DNA of 64,000 nucleotides from Microcoleus sp. LEGE 07076 (GTDB lineage Bacteria; Cyanobacteriota; Cyanobacteriia; Cyanobacteriales; Microcoleaceae): NCBI RefSeq assembly GCF_015207455.1, contig NZ_JADEWV010000005.1:1-64000 (forward strand), written 5' to 3'. Shown here piece after piece: positions 24,428 through 31,876 of the stretch; position 1 is the first letter of the stretch, and the number at the start of each line of letters is the position of its first letter. Position numbers and translations under genes: made by a program. Under the pieces are notes generated by a model, which was not told where the DNA came from, did no database searches, and saw nothing but the letters and a program-made list of their open reading frames with translations.

Positions 24428-25369
24428 TTATTCAACACCCTGAAGCCTCCAAGGTACCGGATCGATCGCCTGCCCGTGCACGTAAAGCCCCCAGTGCAGG
24501 TGAGGGCCCGTCGAAGCCCCAGTTGACCCCAAAGCACCAATTACTTGACCTGCTTGCACCAAATCGCCTTCCTTGACATCAATCCGGCTCAAGTGCATCA
24601 AAATACTTGCTACCCCTTGACCGTGGTCGATCCCAACCACATTTCCGTGGATTTTAAACCCTTGAGATTCGCGTCCCACCAGAGATACCCGACCAGCAGC
24701 AGGTGCAACTACAGGCGAACCGTAAGCACCGGCGTAATCGACGCCACGGTGGTAGTAGTCTTTAGCAAATACCCCATTATAATACCGGCGCACCCCGTAA
24801 ATAGTAGTAATTTCGCCCGAGTTGGGGCGCAACAATTTGCCGTTCCAAAATTTTTGGGTTGTCACCAGTGCTTTAAAGGCGTCTACGCGATCGAATTCAG
24901 CATCAGTACCTTCGGAGTCTTTACCCGGAGGTAGCCAGATAGATTGAGTCGGAAAATTGCGATCGCGCACTTCCACGTTCAACTTCTGCACTTGTCCGTC
25001 ACCCGAGACTTGAACAACGCGGGCACCGGGTTTCTCCACTGGTGTCGTCGGTAGCAGGGCCCGAAAGCGACTATTGCCGATCGGAAAAGCAGGGTAATTT
25101 TTCTGCTGTACAGAAACCGTTGGAGTTTCCCCCCTGTTACCGTCAACCTGAATCATTACTGACAGCGTATCTCCAAGTTGCGGATTTTGGGGGGTGACAA
25201 CTACCTGCAAAGCTTGCACTGGCAGGGCAAAACTCAGAAACCCCGCAACAGTGACCCCGCTGAAAGTAGCGATTAGCTGATTTTCTTTCAACTGCCGCCA
25301 CCGCAATATTACACCCGCCACTATTTCCATACCTTCCCCGCAGTTACCTCGATTCACAGTCGTTGTCAT
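24428..25369 (-). CDS. M23-family metallopeptidase (LytM domain), exported
   Basis: A 313-residue peptidoglycan endopeptidase-like protein. A hydrophobic export segment is at about residues 32-53, ending in LPVQALQ. A beta-rich domain of about 90 residues follows, then the LytM/M23 domain with zinc ligands in YHRGVDYAG (H and D of HxxxD near 207-211), a histidine in LMHLSRID, and HLHWGLYV (HxH near 290-292). All ligands are kept, so it should be active on cell wall peptides. The ATG at 25369 is used; a GTG one codon upstream is possible. A start at Met14 would still keep the signal. Confidence 0.9.
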   Translation of the reverse strand: MTTTVNRGNCGEGMEIVAGVILRWRQLKENQLIATFSGVTVAGFLSFALPVQALQVVVTPQNPQLGDTLSVMIQVDGNRGETPTVSVQQKNYPAFPIGNSRFRALLPTTPVEKPGARVVQVSGDGQVQKLNVEVRDRNFPTQSIWLPPGKDSEGTDAEFDRVDAFKALVTTQKFWNGKLLRPNSGEITTIYGVRRYYNGVFAKDYYHRGVDYAGAYGSPVVAPAAGRVSLVGRESQGFKIHGNVVGIDHGQGVASILMHLSRIDVKEGDLVQAGQVIGALGSTGASTGPHLHWGLYVHGQAIDPVPWRLQGVE

Positions 25370-25614
25370 CACCGATATCCTTAGTTTTTGTCTACCTAAT
25401 GTTACACAAAGTAGCTAAATCTAGGGTGCTAAGCTCAGGCGCATCTAAATTTGACCACATCACATCAAGTTTCCTGTGGGGTGTCGTGCCCGCCCCAAAA
25501 TACAATGCAAGATGCGTAGCAGCTTATCACTACAAAAAAGTACGATCGCCCTCTCCGGAAAAGTACAAAATAATTTGTCAAAACAGAGAAAATTCCCCAG
25601 CCTTCCTCAAACCC

Positions 25615-26400
25615 ATGAATCACACCTCTGACAGCAACTCCCCGTTAGACAATTTCATGCAATCCTTGGGCATCGACCCCCATCAACCAAACAACATCGA
25701 ACATTCTCACAACAACTTACACCTCAACGACCACAACCTCAACCACCCAGCAACATCAGACATCTCCCACAGCGATTGGACTGATAATTCCCACAATTTC
25801 AGCCAGCAACATCCCCAAAGCGACTGGACTCACAGCCACGATATTCACAACGTGGATAATCAGTGGCAAAATCCCGAAAACGGATTTGTAACAGAAACTT
25901 CAGCAACTCACAGCGATTGGACTAATAATTCCCACAATATCAACCAGCAACATCACCAAACAAACTGGACTCACAGCGACGACACTTACCACCAAAATAC
26001 TCACCAGCCAAATTCCGAAACCGGATTTACATCAGCCACAAATCATCACGACAACCACATAAATGCAGCACCGCACGTCCTTAACTCATCCCATTCTAGT
26101 TCTGGAGACTGCCCATTTATTCACATAGACCGCACCGGCGGCGTACACCTGCACAAACTCGACGGAACCACACAAATAGTAGGTCATGTCAACGGGCGAG
26201 ACTTTTACAACTCAGCCTATGACCATATTGGATATCTCGGTAAAGACGGACACATTTATCGTTGGGCTGATGACACTTCCGTAGGACGAGTAGAATCAGG
26301 ACACATTTATCGAGAAAATGGCAAAGAAGTCGGTAGAGCCGATACCGATTTAGAAGGTGCAGCCCATATGTTATTTGCCGTTCGCGGCGGCACTTACTAA
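25615..26400 (+). CDS. His/Asn-rich repeat protein with a beta-repeat C-terminal domain
   Basis: A 261-residue protein of two parts. Residues 1-160 are very rich in His, Asn, Ser and Gln and contain a duplicated unit: SHSDWTDNSHNFSQQH and THSDWTNNSHNINQQH, each followed by a related WTHS segment about 20 residues on. Residues 165-261 form a beta-repeat domain with GYLGKDGHIYRWAD and RVESGHIYRENGKEVGRA; this recalls 4-fold beta-flower type domains, but I am not sure. The many His may bind metal. No signal peptide is seen. ATG 25615 is chosen because the frame upstream (to 25363) has no coding character. Confidence 0.65.
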   Translation: MNHTSDSNSPLDNFMQSLGIDPHQPNNIEHSHNNLHLNDHNLNHPATSDISHSDWTDNSHNFSQQHPQSDWTHSHDIHNVDNQWQNPENGFVTETSATHSDWTNNSHNINQQHHQTNWTHSDDTYHQNTHQPNSETGFTSATNHHDNHINAAPHVLNSSHSSSGDCPFIHIDRTGGVHLHKLDGTTQIVGHVNGRDFYNSAYDHIGYLGKDGHIYRWADDTSVGRVESGHIYRENGKEVGRADTDLEGAAHMLFAVRGGTY

Positions 26401-26770: not shown

Positions 26771-27178
26771 ATGACCAAAGCACTACCAGAAAAAAAAGGA
26801 TTGCTAGCCCAAATTGGCGATTTCGCTAAAGCTGTATTCATGCCCACAATTTATAACGCAGACCGTATTTCCGAAACCCAAGCCAGAAACACAGACATAA
26901 CGATACAAACCAACAAAGAAATCGAAGCAAGCCGACAAAAACTCCGCATACAAGAACTTAAATTACAAGAATTTCAAAGACAAGCCAACCTCACTTTTCA
27001 ACCCGAAGAAGGCAACTTAAACCGCTCCTTACAATCAGAAATAGCAAGACTCAACCGCGAATCCCAAACCCAAGAAGGACTCCTCAACCGTCAAATACAA
27101 GAACAACTTGCCAAACTCAACCGCGACTTTCAAGCCAACGAAGGCAAACTAAATCGCGCACACCAAATCCAACTATAA
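26771..27178 (+). pseudogene. Segment 1: coiled-coil N-terminus
   Basis: This open segment of 135 codons starts at a good ATG and encodes a long helix with repeated NRxxQxxxAxLNR units (for example LNRSLQSEIARLNRESQ), typical of a coiled coil. It ends at a TAA, and the same frame goes on with more helix (RSELQKWCIEQQKEL) to 27489. If translated alone it would give a soluble coiled-coil protein. Confidence 0.65.
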
Positions 27179-28139
27179 ATATTTAGATCCGAACTCCAAA
27201 AATGGTGCATCGAACAGCAAAAAGAACTGCAATTGCAACTAAAAATGTTCGCTGCTCAACTAGCCCGCGAACTCCGAATTTATGACCGACAAAGTAGCAT
27301 CGAAGCTATTCAAGAACAGAAAAGACAAAACAACTCTCCCATCTGGTTAATTGCCCAAGATATTGTCAACTCCAATCCCGCTCAAAATCCCATACCCCTG
27401 CGAGTTTTTCTCTCACCTCCCAGCCTGCAATTCGACCGTTCCGGCGATAGTAATGATAGCGCCAAAGGCTTTCCAGATATGGAAAAAAATTCTGGGAATT
27501 TACCTGCAACAATTCTTTGAAAAATATTCAACTCAAGGAAGACCAATCGAATTTTTATCTGGTGCTTGGACGAGCAAATTCTTTCACAGCCAAGCAGCCA
27601 CAAAAACCATGTTTAACGGCTTGAAAACCGAGCCAACATTAATTTTAGAATCCGTTGCTGAAGGCGATATTTTCAACCTCAACTTTGGTTATTGGGGTTT
27701 GAATTGGGCAACTTATCGCTACAAATCCCCCATTCCCATGCTACCTTGGCGCGAGGTACTTTTTGATTTTGCTAAAGAGCGGGCATGGCAGTGGCAAGCT
27801 CAGCGACAATCCGACAATTCTCAGGGTAATAGCGCTGAAAAATTTGATAAAGTTTTAGGTAATGAGGCTGTTAATAGTTTCTTGCACAACCTCGAAATTA
27901 TTGACAATGAACGGATGTGCGAAGCAATGGGAATTGACCCCACCGACAGCCCGCGTCCCTACAGCATCCACAAAAAAGATCATGAAAAATTTCAGCAATT
28001 TATTGGTATTTGTCACTGTTTAATTGCCGGATTGCTGGCGGATGAATACTTTTTTCTGCACGTCTCCTCAGACGTGCGGCAGCGGCCTCCATTGCCTCAG
28101 TTACTACCTGATTTGTTGCAAGATATGCCCTCGGAGTAA
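27179..28139 (+). pseudogene. Segments 2 and 3: unknown middle domain with a frameshift at an A7 run
   Basis: The frame of segment 1 continues to the A-run at 27483-27489. There the protein-like reading moves to the next frame (about KILGIYLQQFFEKYSTQG) and runs to TAA 28137. The encoded middle domain of roughly 310 residues has a Trp-rich centre (NFGYWGLNWATYRYKS) and helices after it. I do not recognise it. An A7 run could also allow slippage during transcription. Confidence 0.6.
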
Positions 28140-28595
28140 CAGGCACAATTAGTAGAAATAGCGATTAATTTCTACGCCATGTTGTACGATATTATTGGCG
28201 AATCAGAATCGGCATGGATTCCTGAACTGAAGTTAGATTTAGCTGAAGGTTTGCTGTATTTGCCGGATAAGCGTTGGGCGGCGACACAAATTTTTGAGTC
28301 GGTGAAAGCTTGGCTGAAATTGCGCGGTTTATTGGTACCAGAAGGAAACAAGGAAATTTTGGATGCCCTCGATGCGGCTTTGACCATCGATGATTTGGAA
28401 TATGTGAAAAAACTCAATGAATGTTTGGTGGCTGTTGGCAAAACTCGCCAATTTAGCGTCATTAAATCTTGTTACAAACGAGCGATTGGGCGCTGCAAAC
28501 AGGAAAACTCTGCAGCGGCAATTGTGGATTTTAATCAAGTCCTCCAACTTAACGCTAATTTTGCTAAGGCTAATTTCAATCGGGGATTAGCTTAG
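28140..28595 (+). pseudogene. Segment 4: helical region and first TPR
   Basis: The same frame continues after the TAA for 151 codons of helical sequence. It ends in the first TPR unit (NSAAAIVDFNQVLQLNANFA) and is cut by TAG 28593 in the middle of a TPR helix (NRGLA-stop-AKLEQYRAAI). CAG or AAG in the ancestor would restore the usual motif. This stop position inside a conserved repeat is the best single sign that the break is a mutation. Confidence 0.6.
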
Positions 28596-28601
28596 GCTAA
28601 A

Positions 28602-29717
28602 TTGGAGCAGTATCGAGCTGCAATTGAAGATTACACTCAATATTTGCGGCTCGACCCCAACAATCCTGATGGTTGGAACAATCGAGGCAATGCTTATTAT
28701 AAGTTGGGAGAATACGAGTCGGCAATTGCTGATTACAATCAAGCCTTAAATCTCAATCCGAATTTGCAGGGTGTCGCACACAACCGCGATGTGGCTCAAG
28801 GTGTTTGGGATGAGAAAAAACGGCTGCGGCGAGAAGAAGAAGAAAAACAGCAGCGTCGGGCGGAAGCAGAACGTCAGTGGAAATTAGTAGAAGAACAAAA
28901 ACGTCGCGCCGAGGAAGAAGCTAAGGGGAAAGAATTTCAGTTCGAGATTGTTACTGTTAACAATCGAGGCCAAGAAGTTAGCCGCCAACCGGGCAAATCT
29001 TATCAGAAAGTTGCTGATTTGGGCAATGGGGTAAATTTGGAAATGGTTTATATCCCTGGTGGTAGCTTCCAGATGGGTTCATCGGAAAATAGTTCGGAAC
29101 AACCAGTGCATCAAGTGACTGTTCAACCTTTTTATCTGGGAAAATATCCGATTACCCAAGAACAGTACCAAGCGGTGATGGGAAATAACCCATCTAATCT
29201 CAAAGGTGCGAAACGTCCTGTAGAACAAGTAAGTTGGGATGAGGCTGTGGAATTCTGCCAGAAACTTTCTGAAAAAACAGGCAAAATTTATCGTTTACCT
29301 GCGGAAGCCGAATGGGAATATGCTTGTCGCGCGGGAACGACAACACCTTTCTATTTTGGTGACACGATTACGCCAGATTTAGTTAATTATGACGGCAATA
29401 ATCCCTACGGTTCTGCGCCGAACGGACTTTATCGCGGACAAACAACGGATGTCGGGAGTTTTCCGCAGAATGCGTTTGGTTTATACGATATGCACGGGAA
29501 TGTTTGGGAATGGTGCAGCGATAAATGGCATGGTAATTATAGTGACGCGCCGACTGACGGAAGTTCTTGGGAAACTGGCGGAGATAATAACCGGGTGCAG
29601 CGTGGCGGTTCCGGTCGCGGCGATGCGGTCGATTGCCGCAGTGCCTATCGTAGCAGGCTTTCGGCGGGCAATCGTAACAGGAACATCAGTTTTCGCGTTG
29701 CTCTGGTTGCCGCGTAG
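28602..29717 (+). CDS. Distal open segment: TPR plus FGE-sulfatase (C-type lectin fold) domain, DGR target protein
   Basis: A 371-codon segment that could be translated from TTG 28602 or a later start. Residues 1-65 hold two TPR units, 75-115 a charged coiled coil (RREEEEKQQRRAEAERQW), and 140-371 an FGE-sulfatase domain, with MVYIPGGSFQMGS, PVEQVSWDEAVEFC, YRLPAEAEWEYACRAG and GNVWEWCSDKW. The end, with RVQRGG, CRSAYRSR and FRVALVAA, is where cyanobacterial DGR targets carry their variable residues. FGE proteins of this class are binding proteins rather than sulfatase activators. The parent gene is interrupted upstream. Confidence 0.8.
   Translation: MEQYRAAIEDYTQYLRLDPNNPDGWNNRGNAYYKLGEYESAIADYNQALNLNPNLQGVAHNRDVAQGVWDEKKRLRREEEEKQQRRAEAERQWKLVEEQKRRAEEEAKGKEFQFEIVTVNNRGQEVSRQPGKSYQKVADLGNGVNLEMVYIPGGSFQMGSSENSSEQPVHQVTVQPFYLGKYPITQEQYQAVMGNNPSNLKGAKRPVEQVSWDEAVEFCQKLSEKTGKIYRLPAEAEWEYACRAGTTTPFYFGDTITPDLVNYDGNNPYGSAPNGLYRGQTTDVGSFPQNAFGLYDMHGNVWEWCSDKWHGNYSDAPTDGSSWETGGDNNRVQRGGSGRGDAVDCRSAYRSRLSAGNRNRNISFRVALVAA
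29592..29717 (+). other. Probable DGR variable region (VR)
   Basis: The last 126 bases of the target gene have the right place and content for a VR: constant patches (CRSA, NISFRVA) alternate with codons such as GGT, CGC, GAT, GTC, TAT, AGC and CTT. At these positions relatives usually have Asn codons (AAC/AAT), as expected from adenine-directed mutagenesis. No template copy is seen for comparison, so the borders are estimated. Confidence 0.55.
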
Positions 29718-29730
29718 TCTCCGGTTTTTG

Positions 29731-29774
29731 GTTCTGTGCTGTAGTCTCCCGCAAGGACTCTTCGCTATCAGAAC
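29731..29774 (+). promoter_or_regulatory. Possible hairpin downstream of the VR
   Basis: GTTCTG at 29731 can pair with CAGAAC at 29769, enclosing an inner AGTCT/GGACT stem at 29743-29759. Some DGRs need a hairpin just past the VR for target recognition. Pairing here is short, so this is tentative. The rest of 29718-29990 has no gene. Confidence 0.3.
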
Positions 29775-29963
29775 TAGCAGATGGGAATTTGTTAGGCGTG
29801 TAAGAAGAGTCCAGACCTGTTCCCGTGATGAAAGCAATTTTATCCGAATATAAAACCGAATCGGGGAGCTTGGTAGGAATTCCGAACAGTTTCCCGATTT
29901 ACAAGTTTTTTGATTTACAATTATTAAAATACTCGGCGGTTGAAACCGCGTCTACACGAACAA

Positions 29964-29982
29964 AACCCGCCTGCGCGGGTTG
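29964..29982. repeat. Palindrome ahead of avd
   Basis: AACCCGC and GCGGGTT form a perfect 7-base stem nine bases before the avd ATG. With the preceding GGCGGTTGAAACCGC word this is a widely dispersed cyanobacterial repeat. Confidence 0.6.
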
Positions 29983-29990
29983 AGATTTTA

Positions 29991-30332
29991 ATGAATGAAT
30001 TGCCGATTATTCAAAAAACATATGACGTGATTAAATGGTATGTTCCCATTTTAAACAGACTGCCAAGAGATTACAATTTTACGCTAGGCAATAGAATAAT
30101 TGAGGGAATGTACGATTTTATTGAAGGTTTAATTATCGCCCGTTATGCCTCGGAGAAACTATCCCTGCTGACAACTTTAAATGCTAAACTAGATATCTTG
30201 CGCCATCAAACCAGATTGCTAGTAGATTTTAATTTCATGTCAACAGAACGTTACGAATATGTAGGAAAATTATTCAATGAAATCGGCGCGGAACTTGGTG
30301 GCTGGATTAAACAGCAGCGACCAAAGAAATAA
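29991..30332 (+). CDS. avd: Avd-like four-helix bundle protein (DGR accessory)
   Basis: A 113-residue, all-helical basic protein of the S23/four-helix-bundle class: LPIIQKTYDVIKWYVPILNRL, then PRDYNFTLGNRIIEGMYDFIE, AKLDILRHQTRLLVDF, and a final helix ending GWIKQQRPKK. In DGRs Avd forms a barrel that binds the reverse transcriptase and the template RNA. Its place between target and reverse transcriptase is the usual one. ATG 29991 is chosen because the sequence upstream is the palindromic repeat. The gene appears intact. Confidence 0.85.
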   Translation: MNELPIIQKTYDVIKWYVPILNRLPRDYNFTLGNRIIEGMYDFIEGLIIARYASEKLSLLTTLNAKLDILRHQTRLLVDFNFMSTERYEYVGKLFNEIGAELGGWIKQQRPKK

Positions 30333-30348
30333 TATGAAAAATAATGGC

Positions 30349-30565
30349 ATAAATCTTAGATCCCCCTAAATCCCCCTTAAAAAGGGGGACTTTGAGAAGA
30401 ACCCCTAAATCCCTCTTAAAAAAATGCCACAAATCTTAGATCCCCCTAAATCCCCCTTAAAAAGGGGGACTTTGAGAAGAGTCCCTAAATCTCGTTTTTA
30501 AGGGGGACTTTGAGAAGATTCTTGTCCCCCCCTTATTAAGGGGGGCTAGGGGGGATCTAGCATTT
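30349..30565. repeat. C-run/G-run palindromic repeats between avd and RT
   Basis: Two identical 50-base copies (30351-30400 and 30431-30480, with core CCCCCTTAAAAAGGGGG) are followed by partial and inverted copies up to 30565. They fill almost the whole avd-RT gap, where a DGR template repeat and its RNA would usually lie. Confidence 0.9.
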
Positions 30566-30597
30566 GCAGCAAACATTAAAGCAATTGATATAAAGCC

Positions 30598-31683
30598 ATG
30601 AAATGTCATGGTAATCTTTGGCAAAAAATTGTATATTTTGGCAACTTGCTGTCAGCCGCCAAGCTAGCACAACAAGGCAAAAGATTTCGCCCCAATGTCC
30701 TTGCTTTCAATTATAATCTAGAACGAGAACTGTTTAAACTGAAAGAAGAACTAGAATCAAAAACTTATCGACCAGGCCCTTATAAAACTTTTGAAATTGT
30801 CGAACCGAAACGGCGGATGATATCGGCCGCACCTTATCGAGATAGAGTGGTTCACCATGCTTTGTGCAATATCGTAGTTCCCATTTTCGATCGCACTTTC
30901 ATTCACAATTCCTATGCAAATCGCATTGGTTTTGGAACTCACCGCGCTTTAAGGAAATTCACGGATTTTGCCCGTTCTAGTCGCTACATTCTCCAGTGCG
31001 ATATCAAAAAATATTTCCCCAGCATTGACCATCAAATTTTAAAGCTGCTGGTGCGGCGTAAAATTAAATGTGCCGATACATTGTGGTTGATTGATACAAT
31101 TATTGACAATAGCAACCCGCAGCAATCTGTGGTAGAATATTTCCCAGGAGATGATTTACTATCGCCACTGTCGAGACGTAGGGGTTTACCAATCGGCAAT
31201 TGGTCGAGTCAGTTTTTTGCGAGTGTTTATCTCAATGGTTTTGACCATTTTGTTCTCGAACAGCTAAAAATTTCTAAATATGTCCGTTATGTGGATGATT
31301 TTGCCTTGTTTAGCGATGACGGTTTGCTATTGCAAGATGCTAGATTGGCAGTAGAGGAATCTTTGGTTAAGTTACGGGTGAAAATTTATCCGATTAAAAG
31401 TCAGTTATTCGAGACAAAACAGGGAGCAACTTTTGTGGGGTTTCGGGTGTTTCCCGAAAATATCCGTGTGAGACAAGAAAGTTTGCGTAGGGGCCGTCGT
31501 CGGTTGAGGCGCTTGCAAAGAGAGTACGCGAATGGTGAAATAGAGTTAGTACAATTGTCTCGATCGCTTCAAAGTTGGGTGGCGCATTTGGAACATGGGG
31601 ACACTTGGAATTTAAGACAAACAATGTCGATTTGTGGGTTGAAAAATTATAGCTTTTCTAGGTTGGGTGAGGGTATAGGATAA
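30598..31683 (+). CDS. Reverse transcriptase of the diversity-generating retroelement type
   Basis: A 361-residue reverse transcriptase. The catalytic residues are kept: Asp135 in [10 protein letters not shown] and the YVDD box (Tyr231-Asp234, in [11 protein letters not shown]). The motif-4 region reads [13 protein letters not shown] (Ile199-Gln205), the IGxxxSQ form that marks DGR enzymes, against QGxxxSP in group II intron and retroviral enzymes. The basic thumb region ([14 protein letters not shown]) is near residue 300. No maturase or endonuclease domain follows, so it is not an intron protein. It comes after target and avd on one strand and appears intact. Confidence 0.92.
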
Positions 31684-31774: not shown

Positions 31775-31876
31775 AATTCCCAATTCCCAATTCCCAATTC
31801 CCAATTCCCAATTCCCAATTCCCAATTCCCAATTCCCAATTCCCAATTCCCAATTCCCAATTCCCAATTCCCAATT
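31775..31876. repeat. ATTCCCA heptamer array, about 14 copies
   Basis: A near-perfect tandem array. Its last unit reaches into the TAA stop codon of the omp85 gene at 31875-31877. Confidence 0.97.

Follow-up and report, generated by a model that had tools for sequence, protein, structure and literature searches.

The 64,000-nt stretch of Microcoleus sp. LEGE 07076 DNA analysed here (hereafter the window) harbours a diversity-generating retroelement (DGR) that has very probably collapsed by recombination between the target's VR and the template repeat (TR), with the loss of the interval and the TR, and that most likely no longer diversifies its target. That the locus is a DGR, as proposed in the earlier note, was confirmed: Avd, reverse transcriptase (RT), FGE-type target and adenine-biased variation are all real. 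The ancestral cassette would have had the order target–VR–TR–structured RNA–avd–RT. Its direct repeats, VR and TR, would have recombined or slipped, deleting one repeat together with the spacer and the sequence that flanked VR downstream, and leaving the target VR to run directly into the RNA formerly placed 3' of TR. The avd and RT genes would have been spared because the gene order in the genus places both beyond the repeats, and the variant would be frozen because the separate template is gone; the target has since broken and the RT may be decaying. We infer recombination or slippage between the repeats to be the cause and diversification to have ceased, the DGR being most likely inactive in cis.

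Target gene, avd and reverse transcriptase

All features described here are on the plus strand. Positions 28602-31683, previously thought to span target, Avd and RT, do contain the corresponding open reading frames, but the target is represented there only by its end, the gene starting at 26771 and being broken. Its remnant (26771..29717) was delineated by alignment to homologues from two other species of the genus, G008 (L143) and G018 (L147), both open over 982 codons (83% nucleotide identity). Nonsense codons were located at 27176..27178 (TAA; GAA in G008), 28137..28139 (TAA; GAA in G008 and G018) and 28593..28595 (TAG; TAT in G008 and G018), and a 1-nt insertion at 27483..27489, where an A run of 7 stands against 6 in homologues, shifts the frame. 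With three stops and one frameshift relative to the open 982-codon homologue, the target is, judged by its sequence, a pseudogene. The remaining open frame (28602..29717) encodes TPR and the FGE domain, the Pfam FGE-sulfatase match (190.5 bits) extending nearly to the ORF end; this match and the VR homology at the 3' end of the gene uphold the FGE fold of the target. The domain layout comprises a coiled-coil-like N-terminal part, TPR and a C-terminal FGE/C-type-lectin domain. Of the proposed linkage to TPR and coiled-coil domains, TPR was recovered with Pfam and the coiled coil was recognised by eye only, in a gene that is in fragments in the window.

The avd gene (29991..30332) matched NCBIfam NF033474 (DivGenRetAVD) with 137.2 bits (cut-off 80), Pfam bAvd with 71.9 (cut-off 40) and the PHROG 'Avd protein of DGR'. 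The RT frame (30598..31683) is open and contains IGNWSSQ and YVDD, conforming to the [ILV]GNxxSQ pattern, albeit with a unique W. The best match among solved structures was 8ub7 (4e-46), which we take to be the Bordetella phage DGR enzyme and the entry of which includes an Avd chain too; group II intron RTs followed at 8e-20. Scores with NCBIfam group_II_RT_mat (120.9 bits, cut-off 300) and retron_St85_RT (47, cut-off 235) were both under the cut-offs. By these structure matches and scores, a group II intron or retron enzyme was rejected, and the earlier assignments of a DGR-type RT and a genuine Avd were sustained.

Position 202 of the RT, in motif 4, is W in the window and L in 81/81 other sequences having that column (L202W). 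Counting private amino-acid changes only where the two sisters match the outgroup, the window RT has 13, alongside 18 private synonymous changes; the sisters have 4 with 14 and 5 with 32. If the outgroup filter is lifted, the non-synonymous/synonymous counts become 16/18 in the window vs 12/14 and 19/32 in sisters, by which the window is not unusual. The dN/dS of RT and avd between sisters is about 0.11-0.19, both frames being open. The RT appears to show modest signs of relaxed constraint and may be decaying. Between avd and RT, palindromic repeats that look MITE-like by eye (30338..30580) occur also upstream of RT in the sister locus L015; they were considered as a degenerate TR and rejected, since the units are palindromic. 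The names M23 peptidase, KefB, dapF, purF and OMP85 given to genes come from a by-eye reading of translations.

The single repeat and the RNA that follows it

The repeat at 29591..29763 was aligned with TRs of L016, L097 and G007 and with VRs of the genus, and corresponds to the target VR as far as the VR 3' end, joined there to the 3' side of the TR. Its terminal GGACTCTTC (29755..29763) is of VR type, with G at 29756, a position at which the three genus TRs carry C. A motif search revealed 13 VR ends in the genus as GAGGACTCTT; the TRs of G008 and G009 end in GAGCACTCTT, and the G007 TR likewise. The VR 3' ends of G003 and G008 are eroded. Since the window repeat has a VR-type 5' flank and VR-type 3' marker to base 29756 and TR-type sequence from 29764, with the breakpoint between the two positions, we consider it a VR/TR recombinant. 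The 7 matching bases that contain this breakpoint, ACTCTTC, are the last of the repeats and lie outside the longer identical stretch, which makes ordinary homologous recombination less obvious here than at other collapsed loci.

Differences from the sister-species TR affect 13/28 A sites and 7/99 non-A sites (Fisher 6e-6; comparison TRs are from sister species and the genome is a 495-contig draft). The codons of unusual variety noticed earlier in the target C-terminus are supported by this enrichment at adenines, and the enrichment, along with homology to complete cyanobacterial DGRs, supports the view that the locus once diversified. The alternative offered with it, that the locus still diversifies, was not supported, in view of the missing TR, the fusion of VR and TR and the target with 3 nonsense codons and a frameshift.

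A separate TR is expected as an A-rich repeat with a GAGCACTCTTC end. Searches of the window and of the draft assembly (6.79 Mb, 495 contigs) recovered none. The best score for a second A-tolerant VR copy in the window was 11.7, vs 133.2 for the known TR/VR pair in L148; among loose repeat matches in the window, the best 60 of 3091 were low-complexity repeats and no TR; and of 39 window repeat pairs 0 touched the VR. Compared with the whole genome, the sister TR had a full-length match only at 29591-29899, the remaining ten matches being of 31 bases or less. A TR on another contig was sought as well, and besides the window only a paralogous target (C172) and short matches turned up.

A structured, Sp-like RNA, which in relatives begins at the TR 3' end, occupies 29749..29899 according to R1, a covariance model made for RNA of this post-TR kind, and to folding, the 5' strand of helix P1 being at 29757-29763. 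R1 was built from 56 of the 80 nearest RT loci; the RNA is present in 79/80 of these and TR/VR pairs in 69/80 by the stricter count, a looser one having taken in some non-DGR tandem repeats (e.g. L016). In the window R1 scored 103.6 bits at 29749-29856, placed after VR, and this genome yielded one match at E 0.1, directly 3' of the target. From 29764 to 29899, 136/136 bases are identical to L016. The "usual DGR order" reported earlier stands for plus-strand target, Avd and RT; the template is missing, and 29749-29899 is the RNA following TR elsewhere. Rfam RT-14 (RF02921) aligned over all 144 positions at 29758-29900, with 42.8 bits below the gathering score of 48.1, and no gathering-level match occurred in the loci of 9 relatives. 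In the fold, the VR-type G at 29756 extends P1 from 7 to 9 pairs over an otherwise unpaired C; G at the matching position was found in only 6/56 TRs. According to the accessible parts of the accounts, the Bordetella BPP-1 DGR RNA (Sp), with IMH/hairpin, likewise has structured RNA 3' of TR and distinct VR/TR 3' ends, and that RNA recruits bRT-Avd (PMC3240598, PMC12875486), although its sequence and arrangement differ from the window RNA. By analogy, the window RNA may have an Sp-like function. Its full identity to the sister, with RT and avd open at low dN/dS, points to a recent collapse or to something still selected.

One-repeat loci across the order

The survey of the order with R1 returned 141 further matches in 139 loci, with L212 and L259 overlapping, hence 140 places. 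The one-repeat state, an FGE gene leading directly into the RNA with the second repeat not found, was observed in 17/139 loci. Absence of a second copy, or of RT and avd, holds for the stretch retrieved at each locus, 3-8 kb long (L286: 10.4 kb), with only 1.26 kb upstream at L307. In 17/17 collapsed loci the ORFs gave FGE-sulfatase matches above cut-off and to the profile end, and 0/17 had an RT or avd match nearby within the fetched stretches; RT was counted in 7/16 genomes bearing such loci. A TR within a long ORF was seen in 1/102 two-copy loci. The median R1 score was 90.5 in collapsed loci vs 97.8 (Mann-Whitney 6e-4, ignoring relatedness). Some collapsed loci sit in genomes of 3-10 contigs. 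Altogether 35 loci were without a second copy, 17 being counted as collapsed. L318 was left out for its long ORF that is not FGE-like, as were 17 loci that were also without a long frame (L214, L217, L218, L223, L229, L232, L250, L276, L291, L293, L294, L304, L316, L317, L319, L320 and L322), for which a TR with a remote VR, a spurious match or the edge of a contig would account. Also left out were L285, which lies too near an edge, L279, which has a second copy and RT, and L314, whose second copy is weak (49.5, with 15 mismatches at A and 19 elsewhere). R1 matches outside the fetched set were G000, G007, G008 and G009 (seen otherwise), the weak G190, G202, G355 and G363, and G029 and G186, with coordinates identical to L029 and L035.

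Direct pairs of collapsed and two-repeat loci were available for three groups: L208 vs L256, L241, L253 and L258; L267 and L268 vs L295 and L245; and L249 and L262 vs L226. In all three, the collapsed loci have the VR-type 5' flank and the TR-type 3' flank, with the interval missing. The 17/139 one-repeat loci and these two-repeat relatives make recombination of VR with TR look like a recurrent collapse route. Target frames are long and open in the other 17 loci (selected so), and collapse therefore need not yield a pseudogene. The window is unusual among collapsed loci in that its gene order leaves avd and RT behind.

Alternative readings, known systems and significance

An ectopic event, in which the VR of one locus was joined to the TR-RNA-avd-RT core of another, seems unlikely. 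Target and core are indeed on different contigs with different neighbours in G008, but G009 carries the target with its VR together with TR, avd and RT in cis, and the G001 RT adjoins the genes located after the target in G008, an arrangement which, with the MITE-like insert common to G001 and the window, suggests that the core was formerly in cis; moreover, the repeat ends up the same either way. We also find it decidedly improbable that this is an ordinary DGR whose TR lies elsewhere or fell into an assembly gap, with a misassembly that skipped a short TR loop producing the VR-RNA junction. Other full copies of TR or RNA were not found in the genome, the genus VR and TR have only 7 bases in common at the junction, a short overlap for an assembler, and 17 other loci have the same structure, some in genomes of 3-10 contigs; this outweighs the 495-contig draft state, the loop of about 0.5-0.8 kb in relatives G007 and G009, short enough to drop, and the doubtful contig join downstream of RT at an AATTCCC array.

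There is little chance that we are dealing with a working one-repeat DGR, in which the target mRNA 3' end and the RNA template Avd-RT and mutagenic cDNA homes back, VR being its own TR. Such a gene would mutate its own adenines until they are spent, a built-in stop clock for diversification. The intact RNA, the retained VR-type end, the open RT and avd frames and the many former A sites at which the L267 and L268 repeats differ would fit. The target, however, is a pseudogene, the G at 29756 that lengthens P1 is rare among TRs, RT or avd was detected near none of the 17 other collapsed loci and the window RT bears L202W. Furthermore, in the collapsed repeats of L249 and L262 the A sites present in the TR of their relative L295 are retained despite RT elsewhere in both genomes, so that neither locus shows a sign of self-mutagenesis. 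Hardly credible is an ancestral single-repeat form from which the two-repeat cassette arose by tandem duplication: both forms coexist in the order, but group B has four two-repeat relatives and one single, and collapsed repeats such as those of L267, L208 and the window are already diversified at A sites, for which a TR must have existed.

As far as the accessible parts of the sources go, cyanobacterial FGE/CLec-target DGRs (e.g. PMC7517822) resemble the window in RT, Avd, CLec-type C-terminal VR, adenine bias and RT group; the window differs in that its TR was not found, its VR is fused to post-TR RNA and its target is broken. Degenerate DGR loci of Thiohalocapsa PB-PSB1, in the part consulted (PMC10907252), similarly have RT or TR absent and MITE-like repeats among the parts, the loss being explained there by transposons and MITE arrays that took the place of parts, whereas in the window TR loss equals a VR/TR recombinant junction. 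Nostoc PCC 7120 all3226 (PMC7517822) and the T. denticola remnant targets (PMC4891356) are described, in the passages seen, as VR/TR-homologous targets with no RT nearby; PMC7517822 suggests that machinery is removed once a variant is selected. The accounts consulted, in the same passages, give no junction or mechanism, whereas in the window the junction is mapped. No VR-TR recombinant was found in the parts seen of the DGR literature searched, most subscription papers excepted (PMC7517822, PMC10907252, PMC8144416, PMC3240598, PMC4891356, PMC3521204, PMC12875486, PMC12691664, PMC6642488); these parts attribute the loss of DGRs to transposons or offer no explanation for it.

The VR/TR recombinant beside post-TR RNA is a readable scar by which a silent target can be recognised as once diversified, and R1 offers a genome-wide way to find DGR RNAs and such scars. 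Collapse would be a simple one-step route to fix a variant and remove its template, and so to switch the DGR off; in loci with avd and RT enclosed by the repeats, it would remove the machinery too, and it may explain orphan targets.

Core genes and the search for a template repeat

The earlier note had recognised a diversity-generating retroelement (DGR) of three genes, and all of them were confirmed: the target ORF (28602-29717) carries a C-terminal FGE domain (190.5 bits), the avd product (29991-30332) scored 137.2 bits with NCBIfam DivGenRetAVD (cut-off 80) and the reverse transcriptase (RT; 30598-31683) matched the solved RT 8ub7 at 4e-46, group II enzymes being behind at 8e-20. The RT relatives considered were the best 80 of 123 confirmed loci in one genome collection, mostly cyanobacterial and with identities of 55-91%. 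A strict filter revealed a pair of template repeat (TR) and variable repeat (VR) with mismatches on TR adenines in 69 of these 80 loci, and in most of the loci giving such a pair the TR was located directly 3' of the RT.

In the window, no TR was detected by an A-tolerant scan, and a direct VR scan scored no higher than 11.7, vs 133.2 for a known control pair. As a DNA query against the genome, the VR region returned only itself, a paralogous target on contig C172 and three short matches, and the TR region of the sister species (locus L016, genome G008) was found in full length only at 29591-29899, with ten other matches of at most 31 bases. The C172 paralogue (G000:C172:42532-43266; L002, L012, L141) is another FGE target whose end is of the VR type, and its repeat is apparently nearer to the TR type of genomes G009 and G007 than to that of L016.

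Downstream, an AATTCCC array (31775-31872) links the RT to an OMP85-like gene; in the sister locus L015 the same array leads from the RT to a KefB-like gene instead. Since the KefB-like contig of the window's own genome (G000:C301:89-165, L321) also starts with the array (all gene names being assigned by eye), the contig join across it may represent a rearrangement or misassembly.

The repeat junction and its structured RNA

Within the genus, TRs were seen in three genomes. In L016 (G008) and L097/L148 (G009) the TR is positioned upstream of avd; L139 (G007) is a target–VR–TR–RNA cassette with the target split over two frames, avd and RT being absent from the fetched 14 kb and G007 having no RT at 1e-30. 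All these TRs end with GAGCACTCTTC, followed by the conserved flank TCRGAACTRGCARATGGGAATTTG. Thirteen VR ends of the genus, located by motif search, read GAGGACTCTT followed by a pyrimidine-rich tract, and the ends of the G003 and G008 VRs were eroded. The window repeat ends with AAGGACTCTTC and continues into the TR flank. Against the L016 TR, which belongs to another species, 13 of 28 A sites vs 7 of 99 other sites differ over 29591-29717 (Fisher 6e-6), none of three A sites and 3 of 43 other sites differ over 29718-29763, and 29764-29899 is identical to L016 at 136/136 positions. Because a VR-type end is followed by the TR flank, with the breakpoint placed between 29756 and 29764, the window repeat is, as read from its sequence, a chimera of a VR on the left and a TR on the right side.

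In DGRs of this cyanobacterial type the stretch 3' of the TR is a structured RNA supported by covariation: an alignment of 56 stretches (A1, window and L016 left out) gave 24 pairs, 19 of which show both-side changes in at least one sequence. R1, the covariance model built from A1, matched 79 of the 80 RT loci (56 of them had built it, and four distant ones reached only 24-29 bits), 5 of the 29 genomes of the genus (G010 partially only) and 105 of the 388 genomes of the order. Its match in the window (29749-29856, 103.6 bits) is the sole one in that genome at E 0.1. RT-numbered Rfam families are defined near RT genes; the nearest one, RT-14, gave 42.8 bits in the window, under the gathering score of 48.1, and no gathering-level match of this kind was obtained in the loci of nine relatives. 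The final seven repeat bases form the 5' strand of the first helix. The base just outside is rarely G in TRs (6 of 56). In the window it is the VR-type G, and the first helix predicted there is two pairs longer than that of L016. This flawless RNA element could reflect a recent collapse to one repeat or residual function. Target recognition and spacer RNA are treated in PMC3240598 and PMC12875486.

Putative collapsed loci and orphan targets

Recurrence was assessed in 139 loci around R1 matches of the order (141 matches, one place seen twice), each checked for a second copy of the RNA-adjacent repeat and for its position inside a long frame. Two copies were present in 102 loci, with the TR inside a frame extending at least 300 nt upstream in one only (L279). 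No second copy was found in the fetched stretch of 35 loci: in 17 the repeat forms the C-terminal end of a long ORF, 17 had no long frame and one had an ORF unlike FGE. All 17 long ORFs carry an FGE domain over the Pfam cut-off and up to the profile end, several with caspase-like, kinase or TPR parts as well. Neither RT nor avd (E 1e-5) was detected within the fetched stretch of any of these 17 collapsed loci, compared with an RT in 81 of 103 second-copy loci. Seven of their 16 genomes carry a related RT at another place (1e-60), interrupted by a stop in one case, and the remaining nine carry none at this threshold.

Both repeats were kept in related genomes for three groups: L208 (two-repeat relatives L256, L241, L253, L258), L267 and L268 (L295, L245), and L249 and L262 (L226). 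The collapsed members have a VR-type left flank and a TR-type right flank, with an interval of ~320-430 bases missing. A-site states suggest that the breakpoints differ, lying near the 5' end in L249 and L262, which retain the related TR's A sites, inside the repeat in L267 and near the 3' end in L208, L268 and the window. The RNA scored lower with R1 when collapsed (median 90.5 vs 97.8, uncorrected for kinship). No RT or avd was detected in the fetched stretch of the seven two-repeat relatives either; at E 1e-60 an RT was missing from four of these seven genomes and only partial in a fifth, and the RT of such cassettes may act in trans or have been lost.

Orphan targets with GAGGACTCTT-ended VRs occur in G002, G004, G013, G014, G018, G023 and G024, none with an RT at 1e-30 (L112, L116, L121, L122, L124, L125, L132, L135, L138), i.e. 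in at least 7 of the 24 genomes lacking an RT, a part of the matches having been fetched. In G009, whose cassette is complete, the VR (L097:4-165) has a stop codon from a non-adenine change. The window target contains three nonsense codons and one frameshift; its homologues in G008 and G018 are open (982 codons). No DGR core was seen at these two target loci: in G008 it is on a different contig, and G018 has no RT at 1e-30. Despite a 6% difference in bases between the two genes, their last 60 residues including the VR are identical save the final position, as expected of frozen VRs. The C-terminal part of an uncharacterised ORF (25270-26397) recurs 5' of the TPR-FGE target in G007, G008, G009 and G018.

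Constraint on the RT and a proposed deletion

The RT frame of the window is open, with dN/dS of ~0.13-0.19 among the window, L015 and L016, and ~0.11 for avd between the window and L016. At sites where both sisters and the outgroup agree, the window RT branch has 13 amino-acid with 18 synonymous changes; the same filter gave 4 with 14 and 5 with 32 for the sisters. Motif 4 has W at L202 in the window only, with L in all 81 others having that column, and the window deviates at 5 of 108 columns conserved to at least 95% in others (median 2, L015 2, L016 1). Relaxed constraint is only suggested by these sequence comparisons, since the counts without outgroup filter (window 16/18, sisters 12/14 and 19/32) do not set the window apart and eight more distant RTs deviate at conserved columns more often.

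The VR and the TR form a pair of direct repeats, each ~120-160 bases long, and a deletion between them would leave one chimeric repeat. The 7-base match at the window breakpoint would fit slippage or a homing-site break as well as homologous recombination. A bolder reading takes the single repeat as its own template; the many differences between L267 and L268 at former A sites fit either continued change or separate collapses, but L249 and L262 retain their A sites although their genomes hold an RT, which speaks against self-templating.

Earlier reports describe degenerate DGR loci with MITE arrays replacing RT or TR in Thiohalocapsa (PMC10907252), DGR remnants in T. denticola (PMC4891356) and an orphan VR in Nostoc, where removal of the machinery after selection of a variant was suggested (PMC7517822).

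In cassettes arranged target–VR–avd–RT–TR–RNA, as is common, the proposed VR-TR deletion would also take out avd and RT. In the genus of the window the arrangement is target–VR–TR–RNA–avd–RT, of which G009 has a complete example; here both genes would be spared, which would explain why the window retains an RT without a template.
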